In this document: in pieces, positions 12,601 through 63,835 of the stretch
Position numbering within the stretch: the first letter of the stretch is position 1
How the letters are laid out: each line of letters opens with the position of its first letter
NCBI GenBank assembly: GCA_032768795.1
Contig: CP136497.1
Location: 188,501-252,500, forward strand
DNA: 64,000 nucleotides
From: Tremella fuciformis
Lineage: Eukaryota > Basidiomycota > Tremellomycetes > Tremellales > Tremellaceae
Direction: 5' to 3'
Notes under the pieces: model-generated
Database searches by the model: none
Told to the model about the DNA's origin: nothing
Seen by the model: the letters and a program-made list of their open reading frames with translations, nothing else
Made by a program: the position numbers and the translations under genes

Positions 12601-13926
12601 GATTTCGACGAACTCTTTGCTTCGGTCACCCACAAGTCATCATTCCGCCTATTCCTCTCCATCGTCAACTACCTCGACTGGGAATGCGACCAAATAGACA
12701 TCATTGGAGCATTCCTCAAGGCCAACATCGACAAGGACATCTTCATCGAGCCACCAGAAGGCAGCGACATTGCCGCCGGACACGTCCTGCACCTCCGGAA
12801 ATCACTATACGGTCTCCGACAATCACCGCACTTGTTCAACAAGCGCCTCGACGAGTTCCTACGGGAGCTAGGCTTCAAACCGACCCTAGCGGATCCATGC
12901 ATCTACTCGCTGCGACAAGGACACAAGCGGTGCATGATCTCAGTCCACGTTGACGACATGCTCATAGCTGGCAACGATCGATCAACAATCGACGAGATCA
13001 AACGGAAGATCAACAAGGAACTCGAGTGCAAGGACCAAGGACCGGTTTCTTACTTCCTCGGTATCAACATCTACCGAGACAGGCCAAACAAGAAGATGTA
13101 CCTGTCACAAGAGCACTACATCGAGGCAGTTCTTCAACGCTTCGGTGAACCCGGCAAAGCCTGCAAGACAATCTTGCCAGACGCAAAGCTCGTCGAGGCT
13201 ACGCCAAAGGAGGTCGACGAGGCTCGAGATAAACCATTTCCAGCACTCGCCGGGTCAATCCTCTATATTGCCACGATCACCCGACCCGACATCGCCTACG
13301 CAGCATCACTGCTCTGTCGCTTCATCAGCAAATGGTCTCTCACACACTGGAGGGCCGCAAAGCACCTGTTGAGGTACCTGCGAGGAACATCAGATCTCGC
13401 ACTCACCTTTGACGCACATGCAGGGAGAAGAGCACTGCTAGGCTGGGCAGACGCAGACTGGGGTGGATGTCTCGACACACGTCGATCTACAACCGGCTAC
13501 GTCTTCAATACATACGGGGGCATTGTGTCATGGAAAAGCAGGCGACAACCAACAGTCGCACTCTCGACGACACAGGCCGAACTCCTAGCATCAACAGAAG
13601 CGGGCAAAGAGGCAATATGGCTCAGGCAACTATTGAGCGACCTCGACCTAGGTATAGATGGAGCAGTGCCCATCTACAACGACAACAATGGAGCCATTCA
13701 ACTGGCCAAACATCAACACGGGTTCAAACTGAACAAAGCATTCGACATGCGAGCCCAGTGGATACGAGAGCATCAAGCTGGTGGACTGCTTGAGCTCAAA
13801 TACACACCAACGGACAGCAACCGAGCCGACATCCTGACCAAGAACCTTTCGGCCGAGAAGACGAGACAGCTTCGGCAGCTACTGGGCTTGGGAAGACAAG
13901 GAGAAGCAGAGCAGCAGAGTCAATAG
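9634..13926 (+). CDS. Copia gag-pol polyprotein
   Basis: Single 1430-residue frame with copia domain order. An N-terminal Gag region (UBN2-type) is followed by a Cys/His motif near residue 245 (CIHHPDQGRHSTDECW). Then come the aspartic protease (IIDSGATSPFI, about 341), the GAG-pre-integrase zinc module (WHKRLGHS about 476 and CMDCLKGKA about 512), the integrase core (VDLWGP about 541, RSDQGGEF about 603, NSRVERVH about 637), reverse transcriptase with the VDD site (ISVHVDDML, about 1105) and RNase H (ADADWGGCLD, about 1271; STTQAE). All catalytic residues that I can see are kept and no stop or frameshift is present. Gag and Pol share one frame, as in many copia elements, so the Gag excess must be made by other means. 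The ATG at 9634 is the first in frame after the leader. Confidence 0.95.
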   Translation: MPSVQTVKEERKLNGRDNYAQWVREIRVVLGSAGLVPHITKDASAIRALVEARYPVSSPATAAETSKRAVALYEHEKEQSTALSTLYGSLTETVQNKLPSNLIDFENPQPKGLYDHLVTTYGADNGSRLAELWSSIFGETIPENEDPEPHLTAIRSQLAEITSSAITSKLTLEQFANQIGAYAAIRRLPSSYGLLASTFYSGTSSNKIHLDEVIDRVADEHRRRQQKGESVNEMGMLSKSLQKPASKRCIHHPDQGRHSTDECWKVIGVPKHIQEQRSAREAAKGRKQGGQAKKAREQMESEDDSSSESKRGSSRETKEEGYYATEIALHANDNLPSTSIIIDSGATSPFIKDKHLLSHLTKLDKAVKIQIGDGSIVEATHSGRLTFNNVWYNNALYVPSFSHNLLSTQRLGPYTGTHWRFSKDSATLVEKGKVILRGKKLGNLWVVDDTPVRTTSRIHRALQAIENTEAEDTRLLTWHKRLGHSNMRKVWELGKEGKLGAKWTGSFRRVECMDCLKGKATRSASLPNPRRASKPLVEVSVDLWGPATVQSREGFQYFLTCYDDHSKYVQAIPLKKKSDAAEALQDYIKLAENQLDRTVKTIRSDQGGEFTSKEFSHWCKSKGIEHTLTPTDAHNQNSRVERVHLTILNDIRTCLADSNLPTQFWVDALRYVVFTRNRLPGSHAKIPITLFRPDHDIDLQYQGMQPFGHHCIYRVVNPASKLDERGQCGRLLGYTEGSWGYKVLTQSNRVIASRDVTFITGRKTTPSSDEPRQILEPPQPGPRRPSTSLDEDDDTSIELNEIVEAGEEPEEEEQGEEMDDIPPQAVPRQGRGWANEYIREDAPSPEPNPDDGPEDPDRRLNEPTAANADEPRRSGRLAGQEPSHHPLHDIDMDYNRVAIEHALSAQSLNNPQSYAEARRAADWEDWKSAMDEEMGKMEKYGVWEMVPKENHRTLTGKWVFTRKIDGDTGKASQHKARFVVRGFQQVSGRDFDELFASVTHKSSFRLFLSIVNYLDWECDQIDIIGAFLKANIDKDIFIEPPEGSDIAAGHVLHLRKSLYGLRQSPHLFNKRLDEFLRELGFKPTLADPCIYSLRQGHKRCMISVHVDDMLIAGNDRSTIDEIKRKINKELECKDQGPVSYFLGINIYRDRPNKKMYLSQEHYIEAVLQRFGEPGKACKTILPDAKLVEATPKEVDEARDKPFPALAGSILYIATITRPDIAYAASLLCRFISKWSLTHWRAAKHLLRYLRGTSDLALTFDAHAGRRALLGWADADWGGCLDTRRSTTGYVFNTYGGIVSWKSRRQPTVALSTTQAELLASTEAGKEAIWLRQLLSDLDLGIDGAVPIYNDNNGAIQLAKHQHGFKLNKAFDMRAQWIREHQAGGLLELKYTPTDSNRADILTKNLSAEKTRQLRQLLGLGRQGEAEQQSQ

Positions 13927-13945: not shown

Positions 13946-14264
13946 CAACGGAAATAGGTAGTACGCTCACATGAGCTTGACTCAGCCTCGAGTAGCCTCG
14001 TCGAGGCACACACATCCTCGACGAGGTTGTGCCTCGACGAGGTTCATCCCTCGACGAGGCAGGGGAAGCTGCCACAACGATAACTCCGCATATAACGCCG
14101 ACACCCTCGACGACCTTGTAGAATGCCGCCGCCTGTTGCCCTCCTCATCACTCATAGCAAGTGCTGAGCGGGCAACAGGTAAGTCCGAATGCATCACTCA
14201 TAGCAAGTGCTGAGCGGGCAACAGGTGACCGGAATCCCATTGCCTCAGAGCTAAGATTCCGTCG
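13946..14264 (+). repeat. Copia 3' LTR (319 bp)
   Basis: Matches the left LTR at 9218-9536 over its length, including the four CCTCG(A/T)CGAGG palindromes and the 35-bp direct repeat. Confidence 0.95.
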
Positions 14265-15913
14265 TTGGTGCGCAGACAGGCTGTGCAGCTCGACACGTAC
14301 TTGGTGACGTGCGCCGTGAGCCCAGGCCAGTAATAGTCCCGTTGAACCGCCTTCATAGTCCTCTTAACTCCTGGATGTCCTGCCAACGGAGTATCGTGTC
14401 GTGAATTTATGATCTTGAACCTCAAATCATCGTAGTCTGGGATATAGATCTTGCCGTCGATGCGGATGAATCCTTGTTGGTCTATTTCGACTCTAGTATC
14501 GCTTGATAGTCGCAATTCGTTCCTAATATCCTCGAGCGGCTTCTGTGCGGCAATCCCTTCGATGATTTGCCTACACTGCTCGTCCTTCATATACCCTTCC
14601 CTTACTCTGCTCCCATCGATGATCCAGTCATACGTGTTCGGGTCTGCTGTACTGGGTGATTCGGTCGTTGTAACCCCATACATTTCAAGGGGTTCCTGGT
14701 CTTTGACGATAGAAGCTGTCTTCTTTGACTCTTCTAAGTTCGTCACTATTTGGTCCAATTCGTTCTCAGCATCGATTGTCTCGATCACCTGTCGAACCTT
14801 CGAGTCCGTTTGGTAGATGTCGCCGCCTCTTGTCCCTGCCAGGTCAGGTCGTCGCGACAGGGCGTCTGGTACCACATTGCCCTTACCTGGGGTGTACACT
14901 ATTCGTAGATCGAAGCGAGCCAGGATCTCTGCCCATCTGGCCTCCCTGTTTGATACCTGCTTCGGCATGGTATACCCTATCAAGGGCTGATGGTCGGTGA
15001 CGAATATTATTGGCCACTTACTGCCCTCGAAATATGCTCGATGATGCTGTAAGCAATAAATAATTGCGAATAATTCCTTCTCGGTGACAGTCCAGTTCTC
15101 CTCATTCGGTTTGAGTCTTGCTGAGCCATAATGGATTGCCGTTCGCTTCATGGTATTGCGATCCACATGGTAGATCACATACCCAATGGCGAAATCCGAG
15201 GCATCCGTGTGTACCTCTATCGGGAGCTCTGGATCGAAGTGCCCGAGAATAGGCGGTGATGACAGGGCACCCTTCAGCGACTGGAATGCCTTGTCAGCCT
15301 CTTCGTTCCAAATAAACCTTGCTTTCTTCGACATCAACTTGTTGAGAGGTCTCGCAATTCCCGAGAAGTTGGGTACAAATCTTCGGTAGTAACTGAAAAG
15401 ACCCACCGCAGATCGTAGTTCCTTCTGTGTAGTCGGGATAGGGAAGTTCCTAATAGTTTCTGTTAGTCCTTCGTCGGTTGCTATCCCCTCCGCAGACACC
15501 CTGTGTCCTAAGAATGTAATGCTGTCTTTCTCGAACTCGCATTTTGCTGCTTTTAGTCGAAGCTCCCATTGTCGTAGTATATCGAAGACTGTCTTGGTAA
15601 GAGCTCGAAGTTCTTCAACCGTTTTCGCGTAAATGAGAATGTCGTCGATATATACGTAGACACCTTTCCCTATTAGTTCCGAAAATATATCGTTCATAAA
15701 ATGTTGGAACGTTGCGGGAGCCCCTTTTAGGCCATCCCTCATCACAGTGGACTCGAACATACCAAAGATAGTCCTGAACGCTGTCAGGTGTTCGTGTCCT
15801 TCAGCCATCCGCACCAGCTGATAGGCCCCTGCCAAATCCAGCTTCGTGTAGGATCGTGCGTCACGTAGATCTGCCAAGATCTGCGAGATTAATGGTAACG
15901 GATAGGCGCTATT
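14265..15913 (-). pseudogene. Gypsy pol, middle part: reverse transcriptase, RNase H, integrase zinc domain
   Basis: Follows the frameshift near 15915. It contains the rest of the reverse transcriptase (KLDLAGAYQL, LKGAPATFQHFMND, catalytic YIDDILIY, FLGHRVSAEG), RNase H (VHTDASDFAIGYVIYH, TVTEKELFAI, FVTDHQPL, PDALSRRP) and the integrase H2C2 module (HPGVKRTM to SSCTAC). The frame then runs into the copia LTR at 14264. Apart from the insertion it has no stop codon. The catalytic core of integrase continues at 7910-9217. Confidence 0.93.
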
Positions 15914-17454
15914 TACGTGGCTTCATTTAGCTTGCGATAGTCCACGACTAGTCGTAAGCGTCCGTCTTTCTTCGGGACAAAGAACGCCGGCGATCCATAA
16001 GGTGATAACGAATGGTATATCTTTCCTTCCGCCTTCTCCTTTTCCAAGTATTCGTGTAAGGCGTTCTTTTCTTTCGGAGATAGTTGATAGAGAGGAGCAA
16101 GAGGCAGCTTACCTCCCTCCTTTAGTTCTATCCTGTGGTCGTACGGTCGATGTGGCGGCAGCGCTGCCGACCCACTCGGTTCTTCAAACAAGTCTTCCCA
16201 TCCTTGGTAGGCCTCTGGAATCTTGCTTTCCTTTGCCGAAGACTGTTCCTTCTCGTTCAAGGTCGTGTACGAGTCGCTCTCACTGGCGGTTACTCCGTTC
16301 ACCTCTACCCTTGTTTGGTCGTATTCTTTCTCCTCAAGTGCTATTCGTCCCCATTTGTTCCAAATAGTCACATCTTGCAAATCTTCGATTGCCGTCCAAT
16401 CCTCCGGATCGGTTCCGGCTTCATCCTTGCCGTATTTGTAGTCGTCGTAGATTCCACTAGAATCATCGCTTGACTCATCATCCCTCGTAGAAGGGTCACT
16501 GAGTACGGGAGTCCCGTCTTCCGTCCCAGCCCTTTCAAGAGGATCGTCCGCCATTGGCGCTTCTTCGTAGCTATTCGTTTCTGTTGCTCCTTCGCCATCG
16601 TTGCTTATTCCGGCCTCACCAGAACCTTCCTGGGTTACTGAGATCGGTCTCCATCGATTGCCGCTTTCCGCGATCTCGATGTTGTTGGGATAGGTCGTCC
16701 CGGACGCATAGGGCTTCCTGTAAGCCTTCCCTTTTCGTCTGTGTGGTTTTCTCACCACAGGAGTGCACGGGAACTCAGCCCATCCATGCCTCGCATCAAT
16801 GGTTACTCCGTTCTCGGCCATCCACGGCCATCCCAATACAATGTCGGCCCCATTTAATTCTGTCACAAGCAATTTGACATCTATTGGGGGATATTCGGGA
16901 TGAAGTTGGATGTTCGTGTCGATATAGGTGTGAACCAGACCAAACGCGCTTGTACGTCCATCAAACATTACTACGTGTTTGGGTCGTTCGATCACGGTGT
17001 GGTTTAAGGTCTGGGCTATCTCTGACCTCCAGTCGACAAAGCAGGAGCTGGCTCCAGTGTCGAACAGGATGTTGGAGAGATATCCTTGTCGGCAATATAA
17101 GGAAGGGAATCCGCACTGGAGCTTTGCCCGGCCGCCAGTTAGGAGTACCCTCAATCGTAGATTCTCGGTCATGTTATCGTAGCATACAATTGATCTTTTT
17201 GGTAGTAGTTCGTCCCCAATAAATTCTGTTCCGTTATAATTCTCGAATGCCGCACCTAGAGTGAGAGGTTTGTTTGAGCCCCGACTCCCTCTCAATTCGA
17301 CGGGGCGCTTACTTTTGACTGTTGCGAGCTCGTAGAAGGGGTCGTGGTACGCTGGTAGGTGTTCGTAGCATTGGAAGAGACCACCGTTCCTTGAGATCGC
17401 GTCGATTGCGAACAGTCCTTGGCCTGATGACCACTCTGTCCGCAGGAAAAGCAT
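15913..17454 (-). pseudogene. Gypsy pol, 5' part: protease and start of reverse transcriptase
   Basis: Overlaps the end of gag in another frame, so Pol is presumably made by a ribosomal frameshift. It has the aspartic protease motif NILFDTGASSCF near 17080-17040, a long acidic linker, and the beginning of the reverse transcriptase (VPKKDGRLRLVVDYRKLNEAT). Translation then hits TAA at about 15913-15915. One base inserted there would let the conserved NSAYPLPLI follow in frame, so this looks like a one-base deletion rather than a designed stop. The affected RT would lack its active site. Confidence 0.9.
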
Positions 17455-18536
17455 AAGCCCGAATCCCTTCGTCTCTGCTTCTCGAACTCACTCAGGCGTG
17501 GTCGCATACCCAGGCCCGCAAATGGGTTGCCATTCCATGGGGTGGTCGCACGCGGTGGCTGAGTGCTCTTGACTGTGCTGGTTTCTGATGAGCGGTTAAA
17601 ACTGGTAACGGTTGGTCGCACTCGCCCACTATTCGTCTCTATTTGTCGTTGTTCGTGCCTCTCTGGGCGTCCTTGTTCGTTCTTCTTCTCTTGTTCCCGC
17701 TCGAACATGCGTTCATCAAGTCTCGTGATCACCGTGACAAAGTCGTTCCAGGTCTTAGGGATTTCCTCCACCTTGGTAGCGATGGCGTCCTTGAGAGAGG
17801 GCTTCAAGCCTTCCCTAGCCTTGGCGATGAGGACCGAATCGGGCCAATCCAGCAATGATGATAACTGTTCGAACTCTGCAAAGTAATTCGTAACAGAAGA
17901 CTTTTGTTGGATCGCTAATAGTTTCCGTTCGGCTGTATGAACTTCATCTGGATCTCCGTAGGTTCGTTTGATGTGTTTGATAAACAACCCGTAATCGTGA
18001 AGCCATCTAGGCTGATCGTCGACATCCTTAGCTAAGTGCGCCTCAATAGAGTGCAATGGCGCCTTCCTAAAGAACGATATCATATATCGGATCTTGGCAT
18101 AGTCGGTGGCGTATCGGGCTGGTTGTAAGTCGAAGACCAGCTGACACTGCGTCAGGAATCCGGTGAGCTTGTTCCTTTCTCCTTGATACTCGTCCGGAGA
18201 GTTGACCTTTGGTTCCTTGTTGTTCGATTTGTTCGTATTAGTCTCGAATTGGTTCACTCGATGCTCAGCCATCATCCTTTGATTCTGACTCAACAGCAAT
18301 AGTGCCTCACCAATCTTATCGAGTTGGGTCCTGATCGAAGAGAGCCCATCATCCTGGGTAGACTCCATCGTGTCTTCTTGAGCGCCTGGCTCGTACACGC
18401 CTGGCGTACCTTGGGCTCCTTCTCCTTCCTCCGTGGTAGTCCCAGTGGGAGGAGTGATCAGCTCATGCTCTGCGTCGGGATTGCCTGTCGCGCCTCGGTT
18501 CCTAAGGCCGTACCCGGTCGCAGGTGCAGAAGACAT
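17292..18536 (-). CDS. Gypsy Gag (capsid/nucleocapsid)
   Basis: 414-residue structural protein starting at ATG 18536. The N-terminal third is acidic and low complexity. The capsid-like retrotransposon gag domain spans roughly residues 115-265 (FLTQCQLVFDL, YMISFFRKAP, WNDFVTVITRLDERMF). One CCHC zinc knuckle, CFSCGQSGHQAKDC, lies near residue 370. The frame is intact and ends at 17292, overlapping the pol frame by about 160 nt. Gag could still be made even though pol is broken. Confidence 0.93.
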   Translation of the reverse strand: MSSAPATGYGLRNRGATGNPDAEHELITPPTGTTTEEGEGAQGTPGVYEPGAQEDTMESTQDDGLSSIRTQLDKIGEALLLLSQNQRMMAEHRVNQFETNTNKSNNKEPKVNSPDEYQGERNKLTGFLTQCQLVFDLQPARYATDYAKIRYMISFFRKAPLHSIEAHLAKDVDDQPRWLHDYGLFIKHIKRTYGDPDEVHTAERKLLAIQQKSSVTNYFAEFEQLSSLLDWPDSVLIAKAREGLKPSLKDAIATKVEEIPKTWNDFVTVITRLDERMFEREQEKKNEQGRPERHEQRQIETNSGRVRPTVTSFNRSSETSTVKSTQPPRATTPWNGNPFAGLGMRPRLSEFEKQRRRDSGLCFSCGQSGHQAKDCSQSTRSQGTVVSSNATNTYQRTTTPSTSSQQSKVSAPSN

Positions 18537-36763: not shown

Positions 36764-37459
36764 ATGTCTGCAGAGTCAGGTTCCCAGTCCGGTTCGGATG
36801 ATCCGCACAAACAAGTTCATCCAACCGCGGACTGTACGACCATCATCCACACATATTCCACCAGGTTCATGCGGTACATAGATGGGCTCAGGGGCCAGCA
36901 GGTGGCATCGCTCCCAGAGATGGACTTTGACCGGGACCCTTGGGATCTCTTGCCGACGGGCTCAGCCCACGAGCTGGCCCCACTGGAGGACAGTCCGAAT
37001 CCGACCCGAGACTGTGCCAGAGTCCTCCAAGACCATTTCCAGCCTTTTCATCCATACATATCGGCGCTCAAAGGCAGAACCATCAGGCAGTACCTGCAAT
37101 TCCTGAAAGAGGACACGGGCAACTCCGTCGACATCCAGCCTCCTGATTCGAGGGGCATGGTCAAGACAAATGTGAATACCCCTAATGCAACCGTTACCGC
37201 CGAGGAGCAGAGTGATTTTAGCAAGCTCAATATAGCCCTGCCGGGTGAGATTGGTAATATTGTACTCAATGAAGGTTGTAACGGGACAATTTGTATCGCC
37301 AACATACAAGCCAGCTACACGATTGCCGAATATCAATCGGGGAGCACGGTTTGGCGACACATGTGGAATTCCGCCACTCAGAAGATCTATAAGGTGACTG
37401 GCGACAGTATCCACTTTCCAGTGAGAACCCATAGATCTCGAGGTGATGGGCATGATTGA
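36764..37459 (+). CDS. Array gene A: unknown family, two N-modules
   Basis: First member of a tandem paralogue array; I do not recognise the family. 231 residues, no intron, no signal peptide or membrane segment. It has two versions of the family's short helical module: IHTYSTRFMRYIDGLRGQQV (about residues 27-46) and CARVLQDHFQPFHPYISALK followed by GRTIRQYLQFL (about 86-116). The segment NSVDIQPPD and a beta-rich C-terminal part follow (KLNIALPGEIGNIVLNEG, then KVTGDSIHFP). The second half matches the second half of gene D closely (CTRVLTDHFGPFLPYLRALK, NTVSIQPPD, DLTGETIHFP). A TATA-like box precedes it. Confidence 0.72.
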   Translation: MSAESGSQSGSDDPHKQVHPTADCTTIIHTYSTRFMRYIDGLRGQQVASLPEMDFDRDPWDLLPTGSAHELAPLEDSPNPTRDCARVLQDHFQPFHPYISALKGRTIRQYLQFLKEDTGNSVDIQPPDSRGMVKTNVNTPNATVTAEEQSDFSKLNIALPGEIGNIVLNEGCNGTICIANIQASYTIAEYQSGSTVWRHMWNSATQKIYKVTGDSIHFPVRTHRSRGDGHD

Positions 37460-38604
37460 AGTATCCGGTCGCCAGGCAGCCGCGCCTTGGTCAGCACAGT
37501 CCATGAAGTTCCTGGCACCCATGCCGAGTCAAGCCGGGTCTACCGCTCCCGATAGTGGCTGGGGCGGTCATTGAAGGCCGGGTGCTTTTTTGCGGACCCT
37601 CCGTGCCGCGCTCAGTAAGAGTTGTACAGATCCACTCCACACACCCTCCAGGGAATCGCACATGCAGCACTTCGGAAGATATGCCGCCTTCGGCGAATGA
37701 TGTGTGAATCACGCACGGACCATCCTCTGGAGCTACAGTCTGATCTGCGGCAGACCCTGCATAGGTGAGGCGGAGATGTGCTATAGCCTAGCAGATCTAC
37801 TCTCGGACTGCCACTCTTCTGCAGTTTGTGGTGGATATTGGAAAGGACAACCCGATCAACAATTTCAGGTGTCTCATCGTTGTCGCTACTCGTTATGGGC
37901 CGGGCTTTTGACAACTATGACACCACGGACCGTGGTCGTCCCATGCACGCGCTCCGTCAATGGAACTTGCCTCTGCTCATTTAAAAATCAGCGCGATTCA
38001 TAATTGGGAAAGCAGTCTGGCTTCCGCTGCAACAGTGTGGATAGAGGAGGGTAGTGAGTGGACAAGACACAGTGGAAACCGAGCGTACATAGATCGCTCA
38101 AATTGCCGGCGCCAGCAGCCTCCGTGTGACATACATGTAATATACTCTGTGCTTAGTGCATATGCTATGCCGCGGTTGTGAAAGCCGCGATTATCAAAAT
38201 CAGTTCAAAAATTCCAGTCTCTTTTCTTGACAGTCTACCAATCACGAGAAGCGCGGACATTCCCTAGCAAATTCTTGCTTCTCTCCTTTATACTAGTATT
38301 CGTGAGACACTTCAGTCCGATTTGCAACAAGAGGGTCAAATGTTGTGAGAAATCAAAACCCGCGCGGAGTCTGGGCTTCCTTTCTGGACAACATGAAGGC
38401 GCGGTCATCCTCTATCGAAATCTTGCTCGTCTCCTTTATCCAAGTATCCGTGATACGCTTCAGGTCTCCCCGGATATTCGCTAGAATCTGGTTGGGGGTA
38501 GGGGTCTATAGTGCTGGTAGGGTGGCTGATTGCTCCCCAATTCACATTCCAATAACACCCAACCACTACATAAGCCTCGCTACCCACGGGAACGACGGTC
38601 TTCC
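37460..38604. other. Intergenic region with a local 60-bp duplication
   Basis: 1.1 kb between array genes A and B. Two related segments, about 38257-38318 and 38403-38465, share TCTTGCT(T/C)(C/G)TCTCCTTTAT and GATA/GAGACACTTCAG-like ends, pointing to a small tandem duplication. No gene called. Confidence 0.5.
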
Positions 38605-39051
38605 ATGACCGACTCTCAAGGTGACCAAGCCAGCTCGGTGAGGAAGACTGAAGACTATGATACGATTGTCACGGAGAGGTTCGCCGGGTTGGTGCCGCTC
38701 ATAGAGGAGCTACGTGGTAGATCAATTGACGACCTCTTGAGTGGTGCCGGACTCTGCAGGATGACAGTTGATGAGGGACGTGTCTTTGAAACCGATTCTG
38801 CACTTTGTTACCACTCATCCAAGGACGATCATCGAATTCTCATAATCCAGCCTTTTGACGGCAAAGGGGTTTTCACCCTATTCGAGGATCCTGGATATAA
38901 GGCGGGCTCTGTGCGAGGCCCCACAAAGGCTTGGGAGATTGTGGAGAAAAAGCCGCTCGAGGGACCAGTGCGCACCCTATTGCTCCATTACGGGGAGGTT
39001 GAGGCACTCCTGACTGGCGGCACCCTTCATGAGCCAACGGTCACTCGTTGA
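38605..39051 (+). CDS. Array gene B: unknown family, short member
   Basis: 148 residues, no intron. The N-module is YDTIVTERFAGLVPLIEELR followed by GRSIDDLL (about residues 19-46), aligning with YDSMVRHYFPDLAELVDDFR of gene D and CRSVVAKHFPDLVPLIDPIR of gene C. The rest is a short beta-rich region (RILIIQPFDGKGVFTLF). Compared with C and H, the C-terminal region with the DxLxxKxFVE motif is not evident, so it may be a truncated or fast-diverged copy. The ATG at 38605 follows ACTACATAAGCC, a weak TATA-like site at about 38566-38577. Confidence 0.65.
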   Translation: MTDSQGDQASSVRKTEDYDTIVTERFAGLVPLIEELRGRSIDDLLSGAGLCRMTVDEGRVFETDSALCYHSSKDDHRILIIQPFDGKGVFTLFEDPGYKAGSVRGPTKAWEIVEKKPLEGPVRTLLLHYGEVEALLTGGTLHEPTVTR

Positions 39052-39916
39052 GTTGGAACCTGATCCAGAAGCTTTCTCCAGACAGAGGCACAGTCTTTGT
39101 GATCGGATTCGCAACCATCATTGATGCCTTTGCGGTAGGAGTCAGGACCCTGACTCGTAGTGGGCTCTATAGTGTCTTCGTCAATCGTTTTATACAGGCT
39201 GGCTAGTATTTACTTCATATGCATGAACTTCATTACATCCACTGCAGAACCAACCAGAGGGGTACCAGAGTACCAAACAAACAAAGCGACTCACGCAATG
39301 GTCATCACAGGCTGTGAGGACGGAATGAATCAGAAGGCGCCGATGCTCATACTGTAGCCATCGCCCCTCATTTATCTTCCGGCAAAGCAGCTCACCTTCA
39401 TCGCGTTTTCGAGCTCGCGACGGTCAGCGATTTGCCCACGAGTGTCTCTCCGGGGCGGCTTGCTATCATTAAGCCCCTGCTTCATGAGGCTCGCACGCAG
39501 TAGATGTGCGCGATTGGCTCGCAAAACTCCACATGAAGGCGGAATTGTGATGGTCCGGCTGTGAGATGAGCTGCCTTCGACAATCGGGCCGAATGGCGTG
39601 TATCTCTGAGGTTGAGCACCTGCAGCCGACGGATGAGATGTGCACTACACCTGTTGTCTGAGGCAGGAGGTCTGGAATGTTGAGCGGCTGCCGATTCAAA
39701 GCAAGCATTGGCAATCGCTTGCAGAATTCAGTTAATCATCTTGCCAATCGACGGCGCCCGAGGTGTGGCTGTCCCCTGTTTCGCAATTCTTCGGCGCCTC
39801 CTTCCAGAGCTGCCTTCCTTTGCTGCAAGATGGCATATTTCTGCAGGCCTTCTCCAGTATGGTGTCTCTACAGCACTCCCGGTACTTTCCCACTTTCCTT
39901 GGCCCATCAGGGAAAG
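39052..39916. other. Intergenic region between array genes B and C
   Basis: 865 bp; open frames upstream of 39917 in the same frame as gene C have no family similarity. No further gene called. Confidence 0.4.
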
Positions 39917-40588
39917 ATGTCACAAACGGACGCAAACGCCAAGCCCGGCACGAAACCCATCGCGGAGTCGAGCAAGGAGGCCACACACTGCTCCTCAAAC
40001 GACGACTGTCGCTCTGTTGTAGCAAAGCATTTCCCGGACTTGGTACCACTCATTGACCCCATCAGAGGCCATGGCGCCGCTGAATACTGCTGGCTGCTAA
40101 ATGCACCTATCCTCGAATTCGACGAAAAGGAGGATGAAATCGTTTCCGACAACGCCCTGTACAGGCTCACCGGTCTCCCATGTGACAAATTCACGCTTTG
40201 GGTGTACAGCAAGGGGACTTCCCCGGATCCAAAGACAGTCCAACATGCTTTATTGATTCAGAAATCGCGCAATACGCGATTCGAGCTTGTGGATCCCAAA
40301 AGTCATACGAGGTATATTGAAGACAGGGAACGCGGCCCTACCCAAGCCACACTCGTTCTCAACGAGGGCTCCAGGAACGCAATCGTCACAGACTTTACGG
40401 GAAGCACGTACTTCTTCGATCCTTCCTTTGACGAGACTGAAGACGTCAGCGCTCTTCAGAACACCGATGTACAGCCGCCACAACTCCTGCACGGGACCGC
40501 CCCGAGGAGCCTGACACTCCCCGTAAGGTCCAACAACTCAGTGGCAAGCGGGACCAGAAATCTGAGAAACCAACTCTCGCTCAACTAA
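39917..40588 (+). CDS. Array gene C: unknown family
   Basis: 223 residues from ATG 39917 (MSQTDANAK), no intron. N-module CRSVVAKHFPDLVPLIDPIR (about residues 34-53). Then ALYRLTGLPCDKFTLWVYSKG, QHALLIQKSRNTRFELVDP and KSHTRYIEDRERGPTQATLV, which align with ALLRGNRRGLTRLVIRDTLI of D and AVLTESPLGVRKLVMSDTL of H, followed by TGSTYFF. The upstream in-frame extension to 39677 has no family similarity, so it is left out. The last codons (CTCTCGCTCAAC) recur in the non-coding repeat near 47890, downstream of gene H, showing that the duplication unit runs past the stop codon. Confidence 0.7.
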   Translation: MSQTDANAKPGTKPIAESSKEATHCSSNDDCRSVVAKHFPDLVPLIDPIRGHGAAEYCWLLNAPILEFDEKEDEIVSDNALYRLTGLPCDKFTLWVYSKGTSPDPKTVQHALLIQKSRNTRFELVDPKSHTRYIEDRERGPTQATLVLNEGSRNAIVTDFTGSTYFFDPSFDETEDVSALQNTDVQPPQLLHGTAPRSLTLPVRSNNSVASGTRNLRNQLSLN

Positions 40589-41255
40589 AGCATTCCCGCC
40601 TTGTTGCCGACAAATCCCCAAGCCACTGTAATCACAGCCCCTCACGCTGAACAAAAACAACCGGCTCTCAGAAGCTCATTCATTTTCACTGCGCACTAGG
40701 GATGAGAGGCACCGGCGGCGTCTCATCCATCGAGCTGTCATTTCAGACAAGCTGTCCGTATGAGCTGTGGTTGCAACGCACGATGTAGTCTGTGTATAAC
40801 TCCCATAATGTACACATACCACGAAAGGCTGCGCTTCATGAGTCCACCGCATCCTTGTGAAGTCAAGTGCGGGGAGCGCAATTCGCTCAACTCGCCCCTT
40901 TCGTCAGACAGCCTTGACCTTATTCTCAAGCTCCGTACGGGCTTTGAAACCGTGCGAGAAAAGCCATTGTTGAGCACATCTCTGCTGCTCGACTTCCGCA
41001 TCGCGTTATGGACAGAACCTCGTTATATGTGTTGTGCATGCAGCTTTGACGCAGTCGCTTCCGCCATCCTTATGTACAAGCCGCATTTTGAGACTGAGGA
41101 ATGCTACCGTCTCTGCGGCCTATCTTAGGCCAGTTCGACGTGCTCATCAAAGCCCAGCGAGTCACACTTCCTCTTGCCTATTCTGTCGGGAGCTACTTAC
41201 CATTCTCTGTTCCATATCCTCCACATTGACCGAGTCTACCACTGCATGCTAGGGC
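40589..41255. repeat. 3' repeat cassette after gene C
   Basis: Related to 47890-48590 over most of its length: shared CTGTTGCCGA or close, a GTGCATGCAGCTT(T/G)GACGCAG segment, GTCTCTGCGGCC, and GAGTCACACTTCCTCTTGCCTA. The last 130 bp (about 41126-41255) also resembles 46074-46225 and, more weakly, 43985-44150. Confidence 0.75.
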
Positions 41256-42296
41256 CAATGGCACGAAGAAGCGAGCTGGGCTGCATGCGGTGAGCCGTCA
41301 TTGCACAATCCAAGTTTGCCAGCGGTGCAGAGAAAAGGCCGACCAGGTGCAACGCACTCGAGCGACTCTACGTCTGTGCAGGAGCGCTGAGCGCCTCAAG
41401 TCGCCACAAGCTTAGTGAGCTTCATGTTTCTTCGTTTGAAGTGAGAACCCGACTCGCGCCGCCTGCCGCCCAGAGACCTCCTACAGTCCTGACGCAGGAG
41501 CATGTCGCCATCACACATCCGACAGGGACGGCGCCGGTCACCAATACAGAGTACTGACGCACGCTATAGGTCTGCGCCAAGTCATGTGGCGACTTCCTTG
41601 AGGGGCACGGTTGTCCCTCCCCCCTCCTCGCCTGGAGCAGGTCTCGGCAAGGTTTCTTGTTACTGAGCTTGCAGGTTCGCCTTTTGCGAAGGTCATTCCA
41701 ATGTCTACCCAAACAGGGAGCTCTTCCCATATCTCACATACAAGCCATCGAGACTTGGCAGGCGCCCTAAGGATTTCACAAGAAGCCTTCTCATTTGGCT
41801 TTTGCGCAGCTTTCTTGCGTGTTGCGCCTTACTCGTCGATGCGGCTGAGACTCGCTTGCTGCGCTTGGGAGCTTGAGAATTTGCTCTCAGCTACGCTAAG
41901 AAAAGTGGGGGAGATCAAAGGCTCTTGCACGTCTCGTCAGCACTGTCCATTCACGAAAAAATCCTGTAGCGCCATGATCCAGGCTGCTCCACTTGATGCT
42001 GTGGTCTTCCAAGCGTGCTCACTCGGCCAAGCGCTCACCCCAAACGCTCTGAGTGGACAAAGGACGTGAGCCAGACCATCAATCCCTCACGCTGGCGGCA
42101 TTGGCTCTCCCTTGAGGTCCTGCTCCTGCAAAGAGCTGGGTGTGGAATGACCTGTGAGCTTCACATGTATATATAAGCTTGAGACTCGACTTTGCCCTCC
42201 CAACATGTCGCCCGCTGATTTCACAACACATCAGCCCACGAACGCATACGGTCACGCAACACAACTTACTTGCGCATTTGACATACTTACATAGCC
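41256..42296. other. Intergenic region upstream of gene D
   Basis: 1.04 kb. Contains the TATA-like CATGTATATATAAGC at about 42165-42179, some 120 bp before the ATG of gene D. The plus-strand frame at 41611-42069 has no family similarity and is not called. Confidence 0.5.
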
Positions 42297-43557
42297 ATGT
42301 CAGAGCCGTCTCCGACACCGTCCCTTCCTCTTTCGAACGACTATGATTCCATGGTCCGACATTACTTCCCTGATCTGGCGGAACTCGTCGATGACTTCAG
42401 AGGCTGCACGCTCCGCGCAAAAGTGAGTGAATTTGAAGATTCGGAGAATGCCCAGTACATTCATTCCACGGGAAAGCAACCGCAGGTACTCGGCTTCTCC
42501 AGGAGGTGCGTTGAACACCACGCGCGCAAGATACAAATGGACCATTGCTAACGACGTGATCACAGTCAAGGTGAAGCCGCTGGAGGTCCCCGAGGGACAT
42601 GAGCGGTCCGCATTGCTTAGAGGAAATCGCCGCGGTTTGACCCGGCTTGTCATCCGCGACACACTGATCCAGAAACAGTTTGTCGAATCCCGGAAATCTC
42701 ATGGCAGGATTGAGTCCACTCTGTCTCACTTGGCATCAGACGGGACGCACCCTCTCATTGGGTGCACGGGAGATCCGTTCTTGCTTACTTCAAATCAAGC
42801 CGACGCAAGCGCTCAAGTTACAGAAGGCCTGGAACTTGAAGGGCTGGGACTTGAAAGGCTGAGACTTGACGGGCTGGGAGTTGAAGAGAGCTTTGCATCG
42901 ACCTATACCCGGCGAAGCGGATTTGGCTTATTGAGAGACTGCACCCGTGTCCTTACTGACCACTTCGGCCCGTTTCTGCCTTACCTGAGAGCTCTCAAAG
43001 ACAAGACCATCAGGGAATATTTGCAGGACCTGGAGGCAGACTCCCGCAACACTGTGAGCATCCAGCCTCCCGATCCGTCGGGCCCCAGGATGACATTGGT
43101 AACAACCCTCGATGCCAACATTGTCGTCAGCGAGAACACGAGTCTTCGCAAGCTCAAAATCACCCTCCACAGCGGAGACGGTAGAATCGAGCTCGAGGAA
43201 GGTGAGATGAATAGACTTCTCGTTGTTAACGAACAAGAGCACCTCACCATCTTTGAGAATCAAACAGAGACTGGTGTGGTCGCTCGGCAAGTTTACATTC
43301 CCGAAACATCTTCGGATGTGTGGGATCTGACTGGCGAGACGATTCACTTTCCTATGAGTGCGAGTAGATTGAGGGGGACTCTCCCAGAGGCAAGCACTAG
43401 TCCAGGCAGTACCCGCAGCCCCGCAAGGTCCACCAATGACCCTCAAGTTGCGCAACCTCAGTCGTCTGCTCGTACTGGAAGGCGTGCGCACGGAAGTAGT
43501 CGGGGTCACCCCCGGAGAGGCAATGCTCCTCGAGACCCTTCATGCCGAACCCATTAG
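42297..43557 (+). pseudogene. Array gene D: two-module fusion with one frameshift
   Basis: Longest array member (about 400 residues). ATG 42297 gives the N-module YDSMVRHYFPDLAELVDDFR. The frame must then shift between about 42430 and 42520; no intron that I can find restores it, so a small indel is likely. Afterwards comes an H-like domain (YKWTIANDVITVKVKPLE, LVIRDTLIQKQFVESRKSHG, PFLLTS). A leucine-rich linker of about four 15-nt units follows (LELEGLGLERLRLDGLGVEE, about 42833-42892), then a complete A-like module (CTRVLTDHFGPFLPYLRALK to IHFPMS). The downstream frame is long and clean, so either the indel is recent or an unusual splice joins the parts. A good TATA box lies upstream. Confidence 0.65.
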
Positions 43558-44361
43558 CAACAGTCTCCTCGCTCGGAATACAACTATTGACTATCCCTAC
43601 TCCCGCCAATCCGCTTTGCGTATCCATTTCGTCATATTCCACACTGCATGTAGATAATCTATATTCAATTTACGTCTTTGTCAATCACCCCGTTCATTTG
43701 TCTGATACCTTGCTGTGGTGTCGGCACGCCACTTCCAGTGCTATGAGCATATCTCTCAAGTTTGAGCCGGGAGTACTGAGTGGCGGCGCGAACCTCCGTA
43801 AGCCGTCTCCCAAGGCCGTTCAGTGCGTTGCGCAACACCGATTCACCAGCGGCACCGTTCCCGACATACAGATCGACAGAGTCCTGGTTCGTATTCAAAG
43901 TCTTTCGCTAGACATGCATGATATAGAGTATAATCTGGATCCACACAAAATTCGATCATAGACCCACAGGCCGCACTTAGCTCGGCGTCTTTCACTCCAA
44001 CTCGAGGTGTTCGTAATGGATCTATTGGTGGTCGTCATAAGAGCCGATCACCAACTCTGTTCTGATCCGCATCTTCCACAATGCCCCCTCCAGCCGGCGG
44101 CGACTTGCTGTCCACATGGCTCCTCTTCAAGTCAAAAGAGGGAGCGCGAGAACGTCATTCCTCTGACGTATCCGCGGCTCTCATCATTTCCAATTTCTCT
44201 CTAGTTGAAGCGAGCCCAGTACCGTCCTTTGCAAGGCATGTCTTCGCCTCAAGTGGGCCAGGACACTCTTGTCCCCTGGGAATATACATTGCTCTTCGAC
44301 CACATGTTCAATCATACTGGTGTTGGCAGATTCAACTTTGAGACAATCAATCGCAGGCACG
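43558..44361. other. Intergenic region with a diverged repeat cassette
   Basis: About 43985-44150 is weakly related to 46074-46225 (ordered blocks ATCTTCCACAATG and TCCACATGGCTC). No gene called. Confidence 0.45.
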
Positions 44362-44946
44362 ATGTCGATGATTCCTAATGCTCCCTTGCTGCTCCCATCT
44401 ACTCGGAGGTGTGAAGCAGTGGTGTCTGAGGATTTCCCCGAGTTGAAACAACACATTGACCGTATCGGAAGGCGAAAAGCAAGCGATTACATTCACAACC
44501 TTCAGGATGACGGTATGAGGTCCCACCGAGTGGAGACTGATGTCGATCCGACTGAGCTGAACCATCTCCTCCAAGGCTACACGTTCAGCGACACCTTCAC
44601 CATCGAGGCTGGGGGAGCCAATTACAAATATAGCGGTGATACTGACGATTACTCTCTTAGGGTAGACCCAATCACCGATGGCCGCGATGCGCCGTATGCC
44701 CTGATCTTATAGAAGATGTCCCAGAACATGCGTCTGGTGCTGTACAATCCGTCTTTGAAGAAAAAATACGTCGAACAGCGACGACAGGATGGAACGATTC
44801 AAGCAAGACTCACCTCGAGAACCGGTCTCCGTAACGACACATACGAGTACGCCGGTGCGCCATATTTCCTCCTCCCAACGACAACACGCCACGAATCCAG
44901 GACAGCCTATGGTGGGTCTCATATGTCTTCTGCATCCATCTGGTAG
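44362..44946 (+). pseudogene. Array gene F: unknown family, interrupted by one in-frame stop
   Basis: 195 codons in one frame from ATG 44362 to TAG 44946, broken only by a TAG at 44710-44712. N-module CEAVVSEDFPELKQHIDRIGRRKASDYIHNL (about residues 17-47), then YKYSGDTDDYSLRVDP. After the stop, MRLVLYNPSLKKKYVEQRRQ and DGTIQARLTSRTG, then YEYAGAPYFLLP. These line up with LVIRDTLIQKQFVE and PFLLT in D, and LVMSDTLTDKEFVEIMQSDG and PFLW in H. The stop falls inside the conserved core, so a full protein needs read-through; otherwise it is a young pseudogene. Confidence 0.68.
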
Positions 44947-45473
44947 TCCCTCATCCCTGTTCCCTCTCCGTCACAGAAGCATTCCGGACTGTATAGAACG
45001 GCCGACCGCCTGGGCCTATGCCTCGCGACTCCAAGATCCACTATGGCCGCCGGCTCACCTCTGCATATATTCAAAGGCCTTTCTTCATGTATAGGTCACC
45101 GGGCCTTCTTGATACGTGTCGCGCGACAACCAGTAAGGTTTGGACAATTCATGTTCTTCGGATGAGTATAAGACATGGGCAAGGGAACGGGCATATGCCT
45201 TTGACTTTAGATGCTGGTCCGTGAGCGGGTTCTCTCTCCACCCCAGCTCATGCCATTAGTCGAAGGATTCTGGGTCCAGTAAGCACTCCCGCCACATGAG
45301 AGAGGTGGATAGCCCTCTCTTCAATTCTTCTTTCAGGCTGACGGGATCGCGACCCCACATTCCCTTCTTGATTGCAGTCTTTCCCAGCCGCCGGCCGCTG
45401 GGATCGTCCCAGACGTGTTTCTGCATCTTAGATTCGGCCTCCGGTATTGTTGAACAGAATCAGGACCTTCAGA
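44947..45473. other. Intergenic region between array genes F and G
   Basis: 527 bp with no supported gene. The plus frame from 45296 continues into gene G but shows no family similarity before about 45474. Confidence 0.4.
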
Positions 45474-45916
45474 TGACCAACTGTCCTCGTTCACGAGGAC
45501 GTGCAACCGACATGAACCTTTTTTGTTTCGAAGAGGGGTGTTATAACCTGCGCATTCTCCTTACAGACGGCACCGGCGATGTCAATGTTACCGACAGTCA
45601 TGTTCAACTTGGGATCATCATTCGAAACCTCGGAACTGGGAAGTCCATAGAAGAGACTCAAGCGCCCGACGGCGAAATTCTCACTGGGTATCTGCAACGC
45701 TCACATCCAGAATTCCGGATCTTTCTCGAGGACGGCACCATCCAATACCCTTTGAGCGGTGGCGGGGCGATTACCCTTCCGAAAAACGATCCCACAGAGC
45801 AGCATCCGCCCCCCTCCCAGCAAAGCTTGCTTGAAAGCTGGTCGACAAGCCCACTGGGAAGCATGGTCGGAACGTGGACGGGAGATCTTGTAAATCGGAT
45901 CATGCGGCCTCAGTGA
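45474..45916 (+). CDS. Array gene G: possible diverged member
   Basis: From MTNCPRSRG at 45474 (or an in-frame upstream ATG at 45296) to 45916. It lacks the N-module. The segment ILTGYLQRSHPEFRIFLEDGTIQYPL recalls the DGT-containing strand of F and H (QSDGTVHST, RQDGTIQAR), and the length is similar, but the match is weak. The C-terminus is Pro/Ser-rich. Membership in the array family is inferred mainly from position; it might be a remnant. Confidence 0.45.
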
Positions 45917-47060
45917 CTTGAGCATTACTGGCTACCGTACCGCCCGTCGGCTCACGACTGCCTGTTTCTGTCAATGACCAGCTACTATTTTCATGCACGT
46001 ATAAGTCCCATTCTGATCAGCTAGGTGCAGTTTAGGGGGTCATTTCTTGTCACGACCAACCGGTTTCCGTCAGTTCATGCCAGCTCAACGTGTTCATAGT
46101 TGAGCTATCAGGTCACGAGGCTTGTTGTCGCACTTATCCTTTTCTGGTCCGGGTCTTCCACATTGACCGGGTCTACCACTGCTGCTTTCCCATCCACATG
46201 GCTCTCGTGGGCCCCCTCGAGTTCGGGTTCATCGCCTGCTGGCAGTCTGTTACCGTTTTGAGTTCGCAAAGATCATCAAGTGGCTGATGAGTTCTCCATC
46301 CGGCGACTTGACTTGAGGAGGCCCCTGCTCCAAGCGTGAGGGATGCACGCAATACGGTGCTCGGCCGCACAGTAAAGTTCGAGGCGTGACTGAAGTCACT
46401 GTATCCTTTGGAAGACTGTATGATCGGTCTCCTTATGAGTCCTGGAGGACCATAGGCGAGGCTGCTGCTACATTCGCCTGGAAATTTGCCCTCTGTCCTC
46501 TCCAAGGCGAGGCGACGAGATTTTGTACACGATACATCTACGCCCCGTTTGATCCACTCGTGGCTGAGAGCTACTGTACGGGACTTTGCAATCTCGACCG
46601 ATTCAAAACCCTCGCGACTGTGAAAGGGGCTGGGCCAGACTCAGTGTCCTTGCATGTTTGACCAGCGACGTCCATTGTAAGCAAGACTCCCGCGCAAGCG
46701 AGGGCTGAAGGCTTTCTTTGCAAGGGTCGACTCATGAACTACTTTCACCCCACTCGGCTTCTGAATCCCCCGGCAGGTCTGGACTCGTTTCTGGACAACG
46801 AGTGGGGGTCGAGGCGCGAAGGTCTTACGTGATTGAGCTTGACTCTCCTTTCAAGCAAGGCTTCCGCAAGGATCTCACATAGGACTGATTCTTGTGGCGC
46901 GAATATAAAGAGCCAATCCAGCGCCCTCGAGGAGTTTCCAAGTGCTCAGATCTTGCATTTTCGATCGTCAGATCCTCTCAGCAGCCGAGTCTGACGAGTG
47001 GGAATAAAACTGTCAGTTAGCCGCGTACTGCGGACCCTCTCAACGCCCTGATCAATCAAC
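45917..47060. other. Intergenic region with repeat cassette and promoter of gene H
   Basis: About 46074-46225 is a copy of the 3' cassette (shared CCACATTGACCGGGTCTACC-type block and CCACTGCTGCTTTCCCATCC, compare 48521-48560). TATA-like GAATATAAAGAG lies at about 46900-46911, 150 bp before gene H. Confidence 0.55.
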
Positions 47061-47594
47061 ATGTCCACGGCAGTCAAACACGTCGTGTCTACGCTAGATT
47101 GTGACCCGATAGTCCGAGAGGCCTTCCCGGACTTGGCTCAATCTGTAGTCACTTTCAGGGGGAAGAGCATCGATGAGGGGTTGGGTTCGATCGACTGTCC
47201 CGTAATAGATCGGGTCCTGCCGGCTCCAATCTTATGGGCGAGACCCTCGCGTCTTGCGGGAGCGAGGACGGTCGACTCGACTAAATACTTTTGGTCTAGA
47301 ACCGGCGACGGGTTGACCGTTATTGCAAAGCCTTCCAACGCCAATGCTCCGACTGTTCGCTCTGCGGTCCTGACAGAGAGCCCTCTTGGTGTGAGAAAGC
47401 TTGTGATGAGTGACACCCTGACCGACAAAGAGTTTGTCGAAATTATGCAGAGTGACGGGACCGTTCACTCCACTATGACCGAAACGCTTCCGGACGGTAA
47501 GACAACTACCACGTATCAGGGATTCCCTTTTCTGTGGGGCTCGACTGCTAGCCGGGCGCGGGTGCCTTCCTCGACAGAGAAGGCAGCGGCATGA
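47061..47594 (+). CDS. Array gene H: unknown family
   Basis: 177 residues, no intron, ATG 47061. N-module DPIVREAFPDLAQSVVTFRG followed by KSIDEGL (about residues 15-41). Then YFWSRTGDGLTVIAKPS, AVLTESPLGVRKLVMSDTL, TDKEFVEIMQSDGTVHSTMT and YQGFPFLWG. This is the cleanest single-domain member and the best reference for the family. No signal peptide, membrane segment or known catalytic motif. A TATA-like box lies upstream and a full repeat cassette downstream (47890-48590). Confidence 0.72.
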   Translation: MSTAVKHVVSTLDCDPIVREAFPDLAQSVVTFRGKSIDEGLGSIDCPVIDRVLPAPILWARPSRLAGARTVDSTKYFWSRTGDGLTVIAKPSNANAPTVRSAVLTESPLGVRKLVMSDTLTDKEFVEIMQSDGTVHSTMTETLPDGKTTTTYQGFPFLWGSTASRARVPSSTEKAAA

Positions 47595-47889
47595 GGGCCT
47601 TTCCACTTACCGCTTCACGAAGAAGCCTCGCTACAGCTATAAGACCATGTCACTATGAATTTTGTTGAAGTCCCACACCGAGTCATACACTGACGAGTCA
47701 ACCGGGCCAGACTGGCTGGTCTGAGCTCAATTAGGCGCCCGCCCGACGTTCTCCTCACAGATAGCTGGCCCATGCACTTGACCGACTGTGCATCTGTTCA
47801 TATAGCGGTCGGTAGCCGCTCGTTGCCCATGCAACAATCGACCTGTCCTGCAGCCTAAAGCGGTGGAGGTAAAATCTCGGTCCGTGAGA

Positions 47890-48590
47890 CGGATAACTCT
47901 CGCTCAACTGATCTATGCCGGCCCTGTTGCCGATTGTCCCTTCTGCCAGATCACTGTGCTTGAAGCCCTCAGGCTGAATCAAAGCCAAGACTCTCAAGGG
48001 CTCCTATCTTTCCACTATATACCTGGGAGGTGAGGCGCCGACGACGTCTCACGCTTTGCACTACCAATCTAGATGAGCTGTCCGCAAGCTCTCGTTACGA
48101 CTCCTGTTGTCCGTGAAGCCTGCCCATAATGTTAAATTATCTCGGCAGGCTGCGCTCGGGTCTCATCGGATCCATAGCGGCTTGTCAAGTCAAGTGCGGA
48201 GGATCCGGTCTGTGAATCTCGTTCCCTTCGTCGGACAGCCTTGCTCTGATTCTGGGCCTTCGAGTCTGCCTCGACGAGCGTATCTGCTCCTCAACTCTCG
48301 AATCGGGTCAATTTCGGAACCTTCTTCTATCTGTGGTGCATGCAGCTTGGACGCAGCTCGGTCCGCCATTTTTACAATCCGCATTTTCAAAAGTGAGGTA
48401 TGCCACTGTCTCTGCGGCCGATTTCATGCCAGTTCGACATGCTCATAATCGCCCTGCGAGTCACACTTCCTCTTGCCTACACCGTCGGGAGCTACATACC
48501 CTTTTCTGGTCTGGATCCTCCACATTGACATGGTCTGCCACTGCTGCTTTCCCATCCGCGTGACTCTCGTGGGCGCCCTCTAGCTCGGCG
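47890..48590. repeat. 3' repeat cassette after gene H
   Basis: Related to 40560-41255 over about 650 bp. It starts with the sequence that codes for the C-terminus of gene C (CTCTCGCTCAACT) but here is non-coding. The region 47595-48690 holds no gene that I can support. Confidence 0.75.
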
Positions 48591-61883: not shown

Positions 61884-63835
61884 CTAGACCTCGACAATGG
61901 TCGAGTTGAGCGAGCTCTTTTTCCCCTGCTGCAGCTCCGCATCCTTCTCCTGCCCGGGCGAGTCGACGCTGATGGTGCTCTGGTCGAACCGGATGTAACT
62001 CGGGACGCCCATATCGTCCGCAAAGTACCCCTCGGTCTTGCTGAGCCCCTCCCACACGACCGGCTCGTCCGCGTGGTGGTCCGGCATGATCTTGGGCGGC
62101 CAGATCAGGCAGATGAGGTAATACGAACCACCCCCCGCGAGCGAAGACAGGATGATCCCCATGTAGTAGATGTGCGTGCTGGCGATGCCCAGGCTGCCCG
62201 GGTGCAGCGCGTTCGCCACGCCGTGCACGACCAGCACGACGCCGATCAGCCATGCGGCGTAGGCGCGCGGGTTGATGCCGTATTGGTACCAGTAGATGCT
62301 CTTGGGTCCGCCGATGAACACGGACGGAATGTGCACGTTGCCTTTACGGACGAACCAGTAGTCGACGATCTCGATGGCGAGGATCGGGCAGATGAAGCAG
62401 ATGTAGCTCCCGAGGAAGGTCAGGAATTGCTGGGCCGACGAGACGATCTTCCAAGGGACCACGGCGACGGCTAGCAGGGCGCAGAGGACCTGGCCTCGGA
62501 CGATGGTGAAGTATTTCGGGAACAGACCGGCGAGGTCGCACCCGACTGGAATCGAGTTGGAGCTGATGTTGGTCACGAAGGTCGCGTATACTTGGGTCAT
62601 CGAGGCAAGGAAGACGAGTGTACGGGCCCCGGCGGTCCAATGGTGGTCGAGCGTCGCGTTGAAGAAGTCCCACAGGTTCTGGCTGTAAGCCTGGATATGG
62701 AGAATCCTAGATGGAAACTCACCCAGTAGGTCGTGCCGTACATCTGGTGTCCGCACGAGGCGATTGTCATGCCGATGAGAATGACCACGGGCTTCGAAAT
62801 GATGAGTCCGTACACCTGACAATCAGTCGCTGAGTCACATGCATCAAAAGGCCGCTAACAATCGTCCATGTCTGGCGAGGGCGGTTGGCGTATCGAGCCA
62901 GATCGGCAATGTTGACCAGAGGCGGAATGACATTGGACACGGTCGAATTGAGGGCGTACATGAACCCCCATCCGAGCTGACTCCCGCCAATAGTCTTCAC
63001 GACCAATTTGTCAAAGTGCGCCCCACCTGCCTGATGCACCGCCCAGCCAAGTGTCGCAAACAGGGACGGGACGATGATGAAGGTTTTGGCTGCGAAGATC
63101 TTGCTGGTCTTCGAGGGATGAATGAGCATGAAAGCTGGGGGTCAGACGTGATTCTTGGAAAGACCTTCTGTTGAGCGCTCACGAAACTGAATGAACCCTA
63201 GACGATGATTAGCTTTGATCTCAATCTAGCCAAATGGTCGCTCACACAGTATGAAGAACGCCAGGAGCTTGCGGCTGGTCGTGCCCGCATTGGCAGGAAG
63301 GTGGTTCGGGATATCGGTCCATTTGTGCCCGAAGACACACCTCAGGCAGACATCCATCAAATATCCCGCATAAAGCGTCTGAGTGGCCATGTAGAGTATG
63401 GCGACGACCCCTCGGATGAAGATCCAGAGGAGCGAGCCCCTCAGACCGGCTGATACACGCACAAAACTGGGGAAACCGATGTGATATCGAGATGGGCCGC
63501 GCGCGTTGAAGAGCACGAGGAGGCAGCAGATGACGGTGCCGACGATGGAGGCCAACAGGATGTGCCACCACAGCAGCCCGACGCTCACGAGCGACGCGCC
63601 TGCTGAATAAGTTGTCGGACTGAAGCTGAATGCGCGAGTTCAGCTTCATTTCTATCCAACAAGGGAAGCGCTAACTGGAAAACTGAAAGAGAAAGAAGCT
63701 CCAAGAGTCCCATCGTCGAGTTTCAGGAGGGTTCGGCGCCAAGTCGACGTTTGTCCATTTGTCCGTCTTGGGCCCATCCTCATGCTCCGAATCCTTGACC
63801 TTGACGGCGTTGTTGAGGCGTGACCAGACCGACAT
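61884..63835 (-). CDS. NCS1-family nucleobase / allantoin permease
   Basis: Plasma-membrane symporter of the Fur4/Dal4/Fui1 group, ATG 63835. The leader NNAVKVKDSEHEDG is followed by DLAPNPPETRRWDSWSFFLFQFS, the NCS1 entry motif. TMs include LLWWHILLASIVGTVICCLLVLF and GFPSFVRVSAGLRGSLLWIF (TM2-3), then NSTVSNVIPPLVNIADLARYA with the conserved N-x-D-x-x-R-Y motif, FVTNISSNSIPVGCDLAGLFP (TM8 region) and GSYICFICPILAIEIVDYWF. The tail is hydrophilic and ends TIVEV at 61884. About seven introns. Substrate may be uracil, uridine, allantoin or a thiamine-type ring; not decidable here. Confidence 0.87.

Follow-up and report, generated by a model that had tools for sequence, protein, structure and literature searches.

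Lineage-specific tandem gene families that evolve by birth and death are a known general kind in fungi. Analysis of a 64,000-nucleotide stretch of the Tremella fuciformis genome (contig CP136497.1, here C8; C8:188501-252500) revealed an array that resembles this kind. The whole stretch is called the window, and positions without a contig prefix are counted from its first letter. The array comprises six related plus-strand genes (A, B, C, D, F, and H) at 36764-47594, with predicted protein sizes of 148 to 394 residues. An earlier note on this DNA had described a tandem, fast-changing family, and this description is supported, the family having no domain recognized in the libraries searched. The gene models are as follows.

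36764..37459, plus strand: gene A, 231 amino acids, two helical modules plus a single beta part.
38605..39051, plus strand: gene B, 148 amino acids, a helical module and a divergent beta part.
39917..40588, plus strand: gene C, 223 amino acids from an ATG picked by eye.
42297..42426, plus strand: gene D, exon 1, beginning of the first domain.
42427..42502, plus strand: gene D, proposed intron of 76 nucleotides, GTGAAT...CTCCAG, GT-AG.
42503..43557, plus strand: gene D, exon 2, remainder of the first domain and the complete second domain.
44362..44946, plus strand: gene F, with an in-frame TAG at 44710-44712, inside an aligned strand.
45296..45916, plus strand: open frame G, marginal scores, outside the family count.
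47061..47594, plus strand: gene H, 177 amino acids, single domain.

The predicted proteins were compared by Smith-Waterman alignment, and each pair was scored against 300 shuffles. Thirteen of the 15 pairs among the six genes reached z values of at least 3.2 (range to 50), which bears out the relationship. The highest values were obtained for A-D (z 50), D-H (21), C-F (16), and F-H (10). Gene B was linked to C (z 7.2), H (6.4), D (5.4), and A (3.2); the pairs A-H (z 1.1) and B-F (z 0.3) were not significant taken alone. Scores among members no better than shuffled controls, which the note had named as grounds for giving up the family, were not what this comparison yielded. Open frame G, which the note had regarded as a possible member, was rejected. 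Its best whole-protein z was 2.8 (with D; reached by 5 of 300 shuffles), the other five values were 0.3 to 1.5, and when its first 60 residues were set against the helical modules, one of eight comparisons gave a z of 3.5 (with C; 5 of 500 shuffles) and the rest at most 1.5.

The helical module is present in eight copies, two each in A and D. In 20 of the 28 pairs of copies, the score was reached by at most 5 of 500 shuffles, and in the other 8 by 6 to 60 of 500; the two copies inside gene A (A1-A2) matched at z 7.6. Across the six frames of the window, the exact helical pattern proposed earlier has three occurrences (in C, D, and H), and 50 codon-shuffled windows contained none; in A, B, and F, the pattern is present only in looser forms. 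The shared beta module is known in the window from alignments, and a regular expression of the pattern given for it matched nothing there. The number of modules differs between copies, as had been noticed, since A carries two helical modules with one beta part and D carries two complete domains.

With the proposed intron removed, D would be a 394-residue protein, whose first domain is H-like and whose second resembles the C-terminal part of A (44% identity to the C-terminal domain of A). The D intron is one of nine frame-joining GT-AG options; it was picked by eye and retains residues aligned with relatives. The reading of D as a broken gene was set aside, as its frame change is better explained by one GT-AG intron. 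In F, all eight intron options found that remove the TAG also delete residues aligned in relatives. Therefore, F is taken as the one clear broken copy, with an assembly error as an alternative; of the two broken genes once proposed, F stands and D does not. The open frame of C begins before the chosen ATG, and an alternative ATG lies at 39677. Directly upstream of gene B, at 38251-38463, a 65-nucleotide sequence is repeated once at a spacing of 148 nucleotides (80% identity).

The genome (28.1 Mb, 11 contigs) was searched with eight members as protein queries, F being represented by its first 116 residues and D by its second frame. At E values of 0.001 or less, these searches revealed two main clusters and nothing else. 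The B and F queries gave weak matches (E, 0.02 to 0.18) that lie close together 31 to 35 kb downstream of H. The second cluster, at C8:265486-271878 and 29 kb past the first, consists of five open plus-strand genes, J, K, L, M, and N, with profile E values of 3e-19 to 1e-9 and BLAST E values down to 6e-13 (to F); the K and N queries agree. The mutual identity of these five is 36 to 52% (eight pairs computed). All 11 members of the two main clusters, six in the window and five in the second cluster, lie on the plus strand in direct tandem. Weak matches on C1, C3, C6, and C10 were rejected because none of the four loci matched the family profile. In a tree of 12 domains, K, J, L, M, and N were grouped (89/89, short of the support that the tool itself takes as firm), H grouped with the first domain of D (98/96) and A with the second (100/100), and B and C formed long branches of unsure placement.

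A profile of the 12 domains, run over 4495 open frames of a 214-kb stretch, revealed frame Q on the minus strand (C8:299411-299764; E, 6e-4) and the weaker frame P (C8:297770-298381; E, 0.3). The reversed-frame control gave no match at E values of 1 or less among 4495 frames. P and Q are mutual paralogues in both parts (z 18 and 12). Compared with the 12 domains singly, Q reached z values of at least 3.5 in five (N, 7.2; Dc, 6.4; M, 6.1; B, 4.7; Ac, 3.5), P reached 3.1 to 4.2 in four, and the frame bearing the end of the beta part of Q reached at most 2.7. In Q (L025 6576-7264, minus strand), the reading frame changes between the helical part and the beta-part end, by an intron or a lost frame. 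No family frame was found among 212 frames in the 10 kb beyond this locus. The third locus (C8:297.8-299.8 kb) is a very divergent pair that the single-protein genome searches overlooked, so that the family count, 13 or more genes in a span of 75 kb, is a lower bound. Judged from these matches, the family is present at two and probably three linked loci of a single contig.

Downstream of H, on the minus strand, lies a sugar transporter gene, parts of whose 3' end recur between the family genes, as listed below.

48461..48588, minus strand: part of the final transporter exon, with the stop codon at 48461-48463, source of the repeated tails.
47895..48548, no strand assigned: flank downstream of H, reaching the transporter 3' end, 68% alike to 40572-41250 over 695 columns.
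40572..41250, no strand assigned: second flank copy, downstream of C, its last part a transporter tail fragment.
46132..46226, minus strand: piece of the transporter tail, located between G and H and 85% alike over 95 nucleotides to 48494-48588.
43991..44122, no strand assigned: weaker flank copy between D and F, 61% alike to 46074-46204 (E, 5e-4).

One 160-nucleotide block shared by 40572-41250 and 47895-48548 reaches 81%. The transporter frame is intact in both clear copies, the 46.1-kb copy being stop-free and the 41-kb copy ending at the same stop, and a genome search with transporter-tail DNA gave matches in the array only. This repetition of the transporter 3' end indicates that units were duplicated in tandem there or that flanks were exchanged. 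The flanks are far more alike than the synonymous sites of adjacent genes (proportion of synonymous differences [pS], 0.65 for C-H over 49 codons and 0.73 for F-H). Positive selection was rejected as the cause of the better-kept flanks because synonymous sites are equally diverged; the histories of genes and flanks therefore differ, the flanks having been duplicated later or exchanged between copies. The gene divergence predates the flank copies, or the flanks were later homogenized, or they are constrained. The birth-and-death pattern suggested in the note is supported by the duplication scars, by the fusion of domains, and by a single clearly broken copy.

The ratio of nonsynonymous to synonymous differences (pN/pS) was computed for 13 of the 55 possible pairs. 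Gene-wide values ranged from 0.56 to 0.81, so that no pair reached 1; the upper 95% bounds lay between 0.70 and 0.98, and in every pair the third codon position was the most variable. A separate comparison of seven pairs, including F-H, C-H, B-C, and B-H, which lie outside the 13, gave pN below pS in all seven. These results indicate that the proteins are constrained, weakly, and that their change is fast but below the neutral level. The rapid (positive) selection suggested in the note is not supported, as gene-wide amino acid change never exceeds synonymous change in the 13 pairs. Within J, L, M, and N, the ratios were lowest (0.42 to 0.49) in the helical region and in two regions of the beta part. 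The 150 nucleotides upstream of the start codons of these four genes are 71 to 81% alike, compared with 63 to 70% for the coding sequences, in six of six pairs, which suggests shared regulation; farther upstream and downstream, the values are 58 to 73%, near the 63% shuffled baseline. A core-promoter-like stretch is common to the upstream regions of J, L, M, and N and was not obvious by eye before the genes of the window.

Structural models were generated with AlphaFold for A (alignment of 2 rows; mean predicted local distance difference test [pLDDT] score, 55) and H (7 rows; mean pLDDT, 69). The A model has two helices in the C-terminal domain followed by 9 strands, and the H model has three short helices followed by 8 strands; the architecture is similar in both, and block confidence is 80 to 89 in parts. 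J, L, M, and N carry a long variable insert between helices and strands. No fold match stood out for either model in the PDB or for the H model in a viral structure library. The Pfam search covered 8 frames of the window, 5 proteins of the second cluster, and 3 frames of the third locus and gave no match above the cut-off; sub-cut-off strays in 7 of these 16 (E, 0.045 to 0.62) each pointed to a different family. NCBIfam, PHROGs, and PDB sequences gave no convincing match to the family, and searches of protein collections poor in or without fungi gave no relatives (three for the neighboring transporter). The earlier statement that the family has no known domain holds for the libraries searched, the protein database used containing few fungal proteins. 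Inspection by eye of the 11 N termini of the two main clusters revealed no signal-peptide-like start, and a secreted host-interaction role is therefore less likely.

We give an even chance to the interpretation that the array belongs to a family confined to one fungal lineage, which encodes small, soluble, intracellular binding proteins and expands and decays by local tandem duplication. Local tandem duplication would add copies at two, probably three, linked loci. Each domain, in which a short helical portion precedes an antiparallel beta stretch, would serve to bind either a small ligand or a protein partner, and copies would diverge in binding target while the core is kept. The fusion of two domains in D and the loss in F would then be parts of family turnover. 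The evolutionary part of this interpretation is strong, birth and death being well supported, and relatedness, clustering, duplication scars, constraint on the proteins, and one broken copy are shown; the biochemical part (binding and divergence of specificity) we infer, and likewise the restriction to one lineage and the intracellular location.

Several points weigh against this interpretation. No homologue of known function backs binding, and lineage restriction was examined only in collections holding few fungi. The two structural models are of low to medium confidence, given their mean scores and shallow alignments. The whole-genome protein searches overlooked the third locus, which makes the family count a minimum. 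The upstream signal is limited to J, L, M, and N; the aligner reaches 63% on shuffled sequence, and four pairs with K are 52 to 72% alike upstream.

An explanation that is unlikely, and yet deserves weight, is weak, relaxed constraint, by which a few copies would keep a minor job and the others would drift to loss with no diversifying force. The pN/pS range of the family, the frame loss in F, and the frame change within Q, by intron or loss, are consistent with this explanation. However, 10 of the 11 main-cluster genes (D with one intron) have retained open frames over 148 to 394 amino acids despite a synonymous divergence of 0.77 to 2.7 in the 13 pairs, and J, L, M, and N have retained similar upstream regions.

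Self/non-self recognition or conflict with a host, parasite, or competitor, with divergence by positive selection, appears rather improbable. The tandem array, the domain fusion, the broken copy, and the low identity between copies would all fit such a role. In addition, four family pairs at 47 to 52% identity gave pN/pS values of 0.56, 0.61, 0.62, and 0.74, somewhat above those of nearby duplicated kinases at 50 to 62% identity (0.37, 0.40, 0.41, 0.41, and 0.54). A sixth kinase pair (pN/pS, 1.25; 38% identity) was set aside because it overlaps another row and is apparently out-of-frame homologous DNA. Among 24 transporter control pairs (4 more had fewer than 50 aligned codons), the one close enough to compare, at 51% identity, gave 0.50, and the other 23, at 21 to 42% identity, gave 0.64 to 1.04. 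The excess of the family over the controls is modest, with overlapping intervals, and is comparable only at about 50% identity; at 26 to 38% identity, family and transporter pairs are indistinguishable. Against recognition stand these inseparable pairs, the ratios below 1 in every pair, the single 25-codon window of 17 along J, L, M, and N that reaches 1.04, and the lack of a secretion signal by eye. No known recognition domain was matched, and the roles that the note had offered as examples, self/non-self recognition, stress, and host interaction, are not directly supported.

It is doubtful that the family represents a previously undescribed intracellular domain of short helices with a beta sheet or barrel, forming a diversified recognition set in one fungal lineage whose specificities would arise via tandem duplication, domain fusion, and flank exchange. 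A very distant branch of the fatty-acid-binding-protein/calycin fold, with the helices as a lid and the beta barrel as a pocket for hydrophobic ligands, is quite unlikely. The predicted order of helices followed by 8 or 9 antiparallel strands is alike, but no significant fold or sequence match was found, and the long insert in J, L, M, and N has no place in this likeness. Finally, chance open frames within duplicated non-coding DNA can practically be dismissed: the frames are small and mostly single-exon, and duplicated non-coding flanks lie in the same region, but shuffle z values reach 50, codon positions are biased, and frames are preserved across copies.

In the surroundings of the clusters, tandem APH-like phosphotransferase genes lie to the left of the second cluster (C8:260698-264197; PF01636 E values of 5e-11 and 5e-12 for two frames). 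To its right, at about C8:273188-273402, a 219-nucleotide inverted DNA match (61%) and a look at the translation suggest another APH-like gene; the frame examined there matched nothing in Pfam. The stretch around the second cluster seems liable to duplicate in tandem. A gene resembling purine/cytosine permeases, together with two amidohydrolase genes around the second cluster (window 61884-62822; L021 5943-6584; L023 1060-1926), perhaps forms a nitrogen-salvage neighborhood, and a gene with a fungal transcription-factor domain is close by. Upstream of the array, retroelement frames were recognized by eye from translations at 9634-13926 and 14198-18536, among them a Ty1/copia-like open frame of 1430 residues and Ty3-like pieces.

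With at least 13 genes in 75 kb and duplication boundaries that are still readable, the family offers a bounded case for the origin and turnover of a family whose domain is not recognized. If the domain is new, it adds a family to the uncharacterized part of fungal proteomes; if it has a known fold, it shows the extent of drift beyond sequence detection. Among the structural matches listed for both models are chains of the single-layer beta-sheet proteins OspA and CPAP (G-box), and MORN-repeat proteins appear lower among the viral-library matches listed for the H model. Unlike typical clustered secreted effectors, the array has no signal-peptide-like start by eye, and it differs from fungal birth-and-death families in that its domain matches nothing convincing in the searched libraries. 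It shares with those families the head-to-tail clusters, the low identity between copies, the duplication scars, a broken copy, and the change in domain number.

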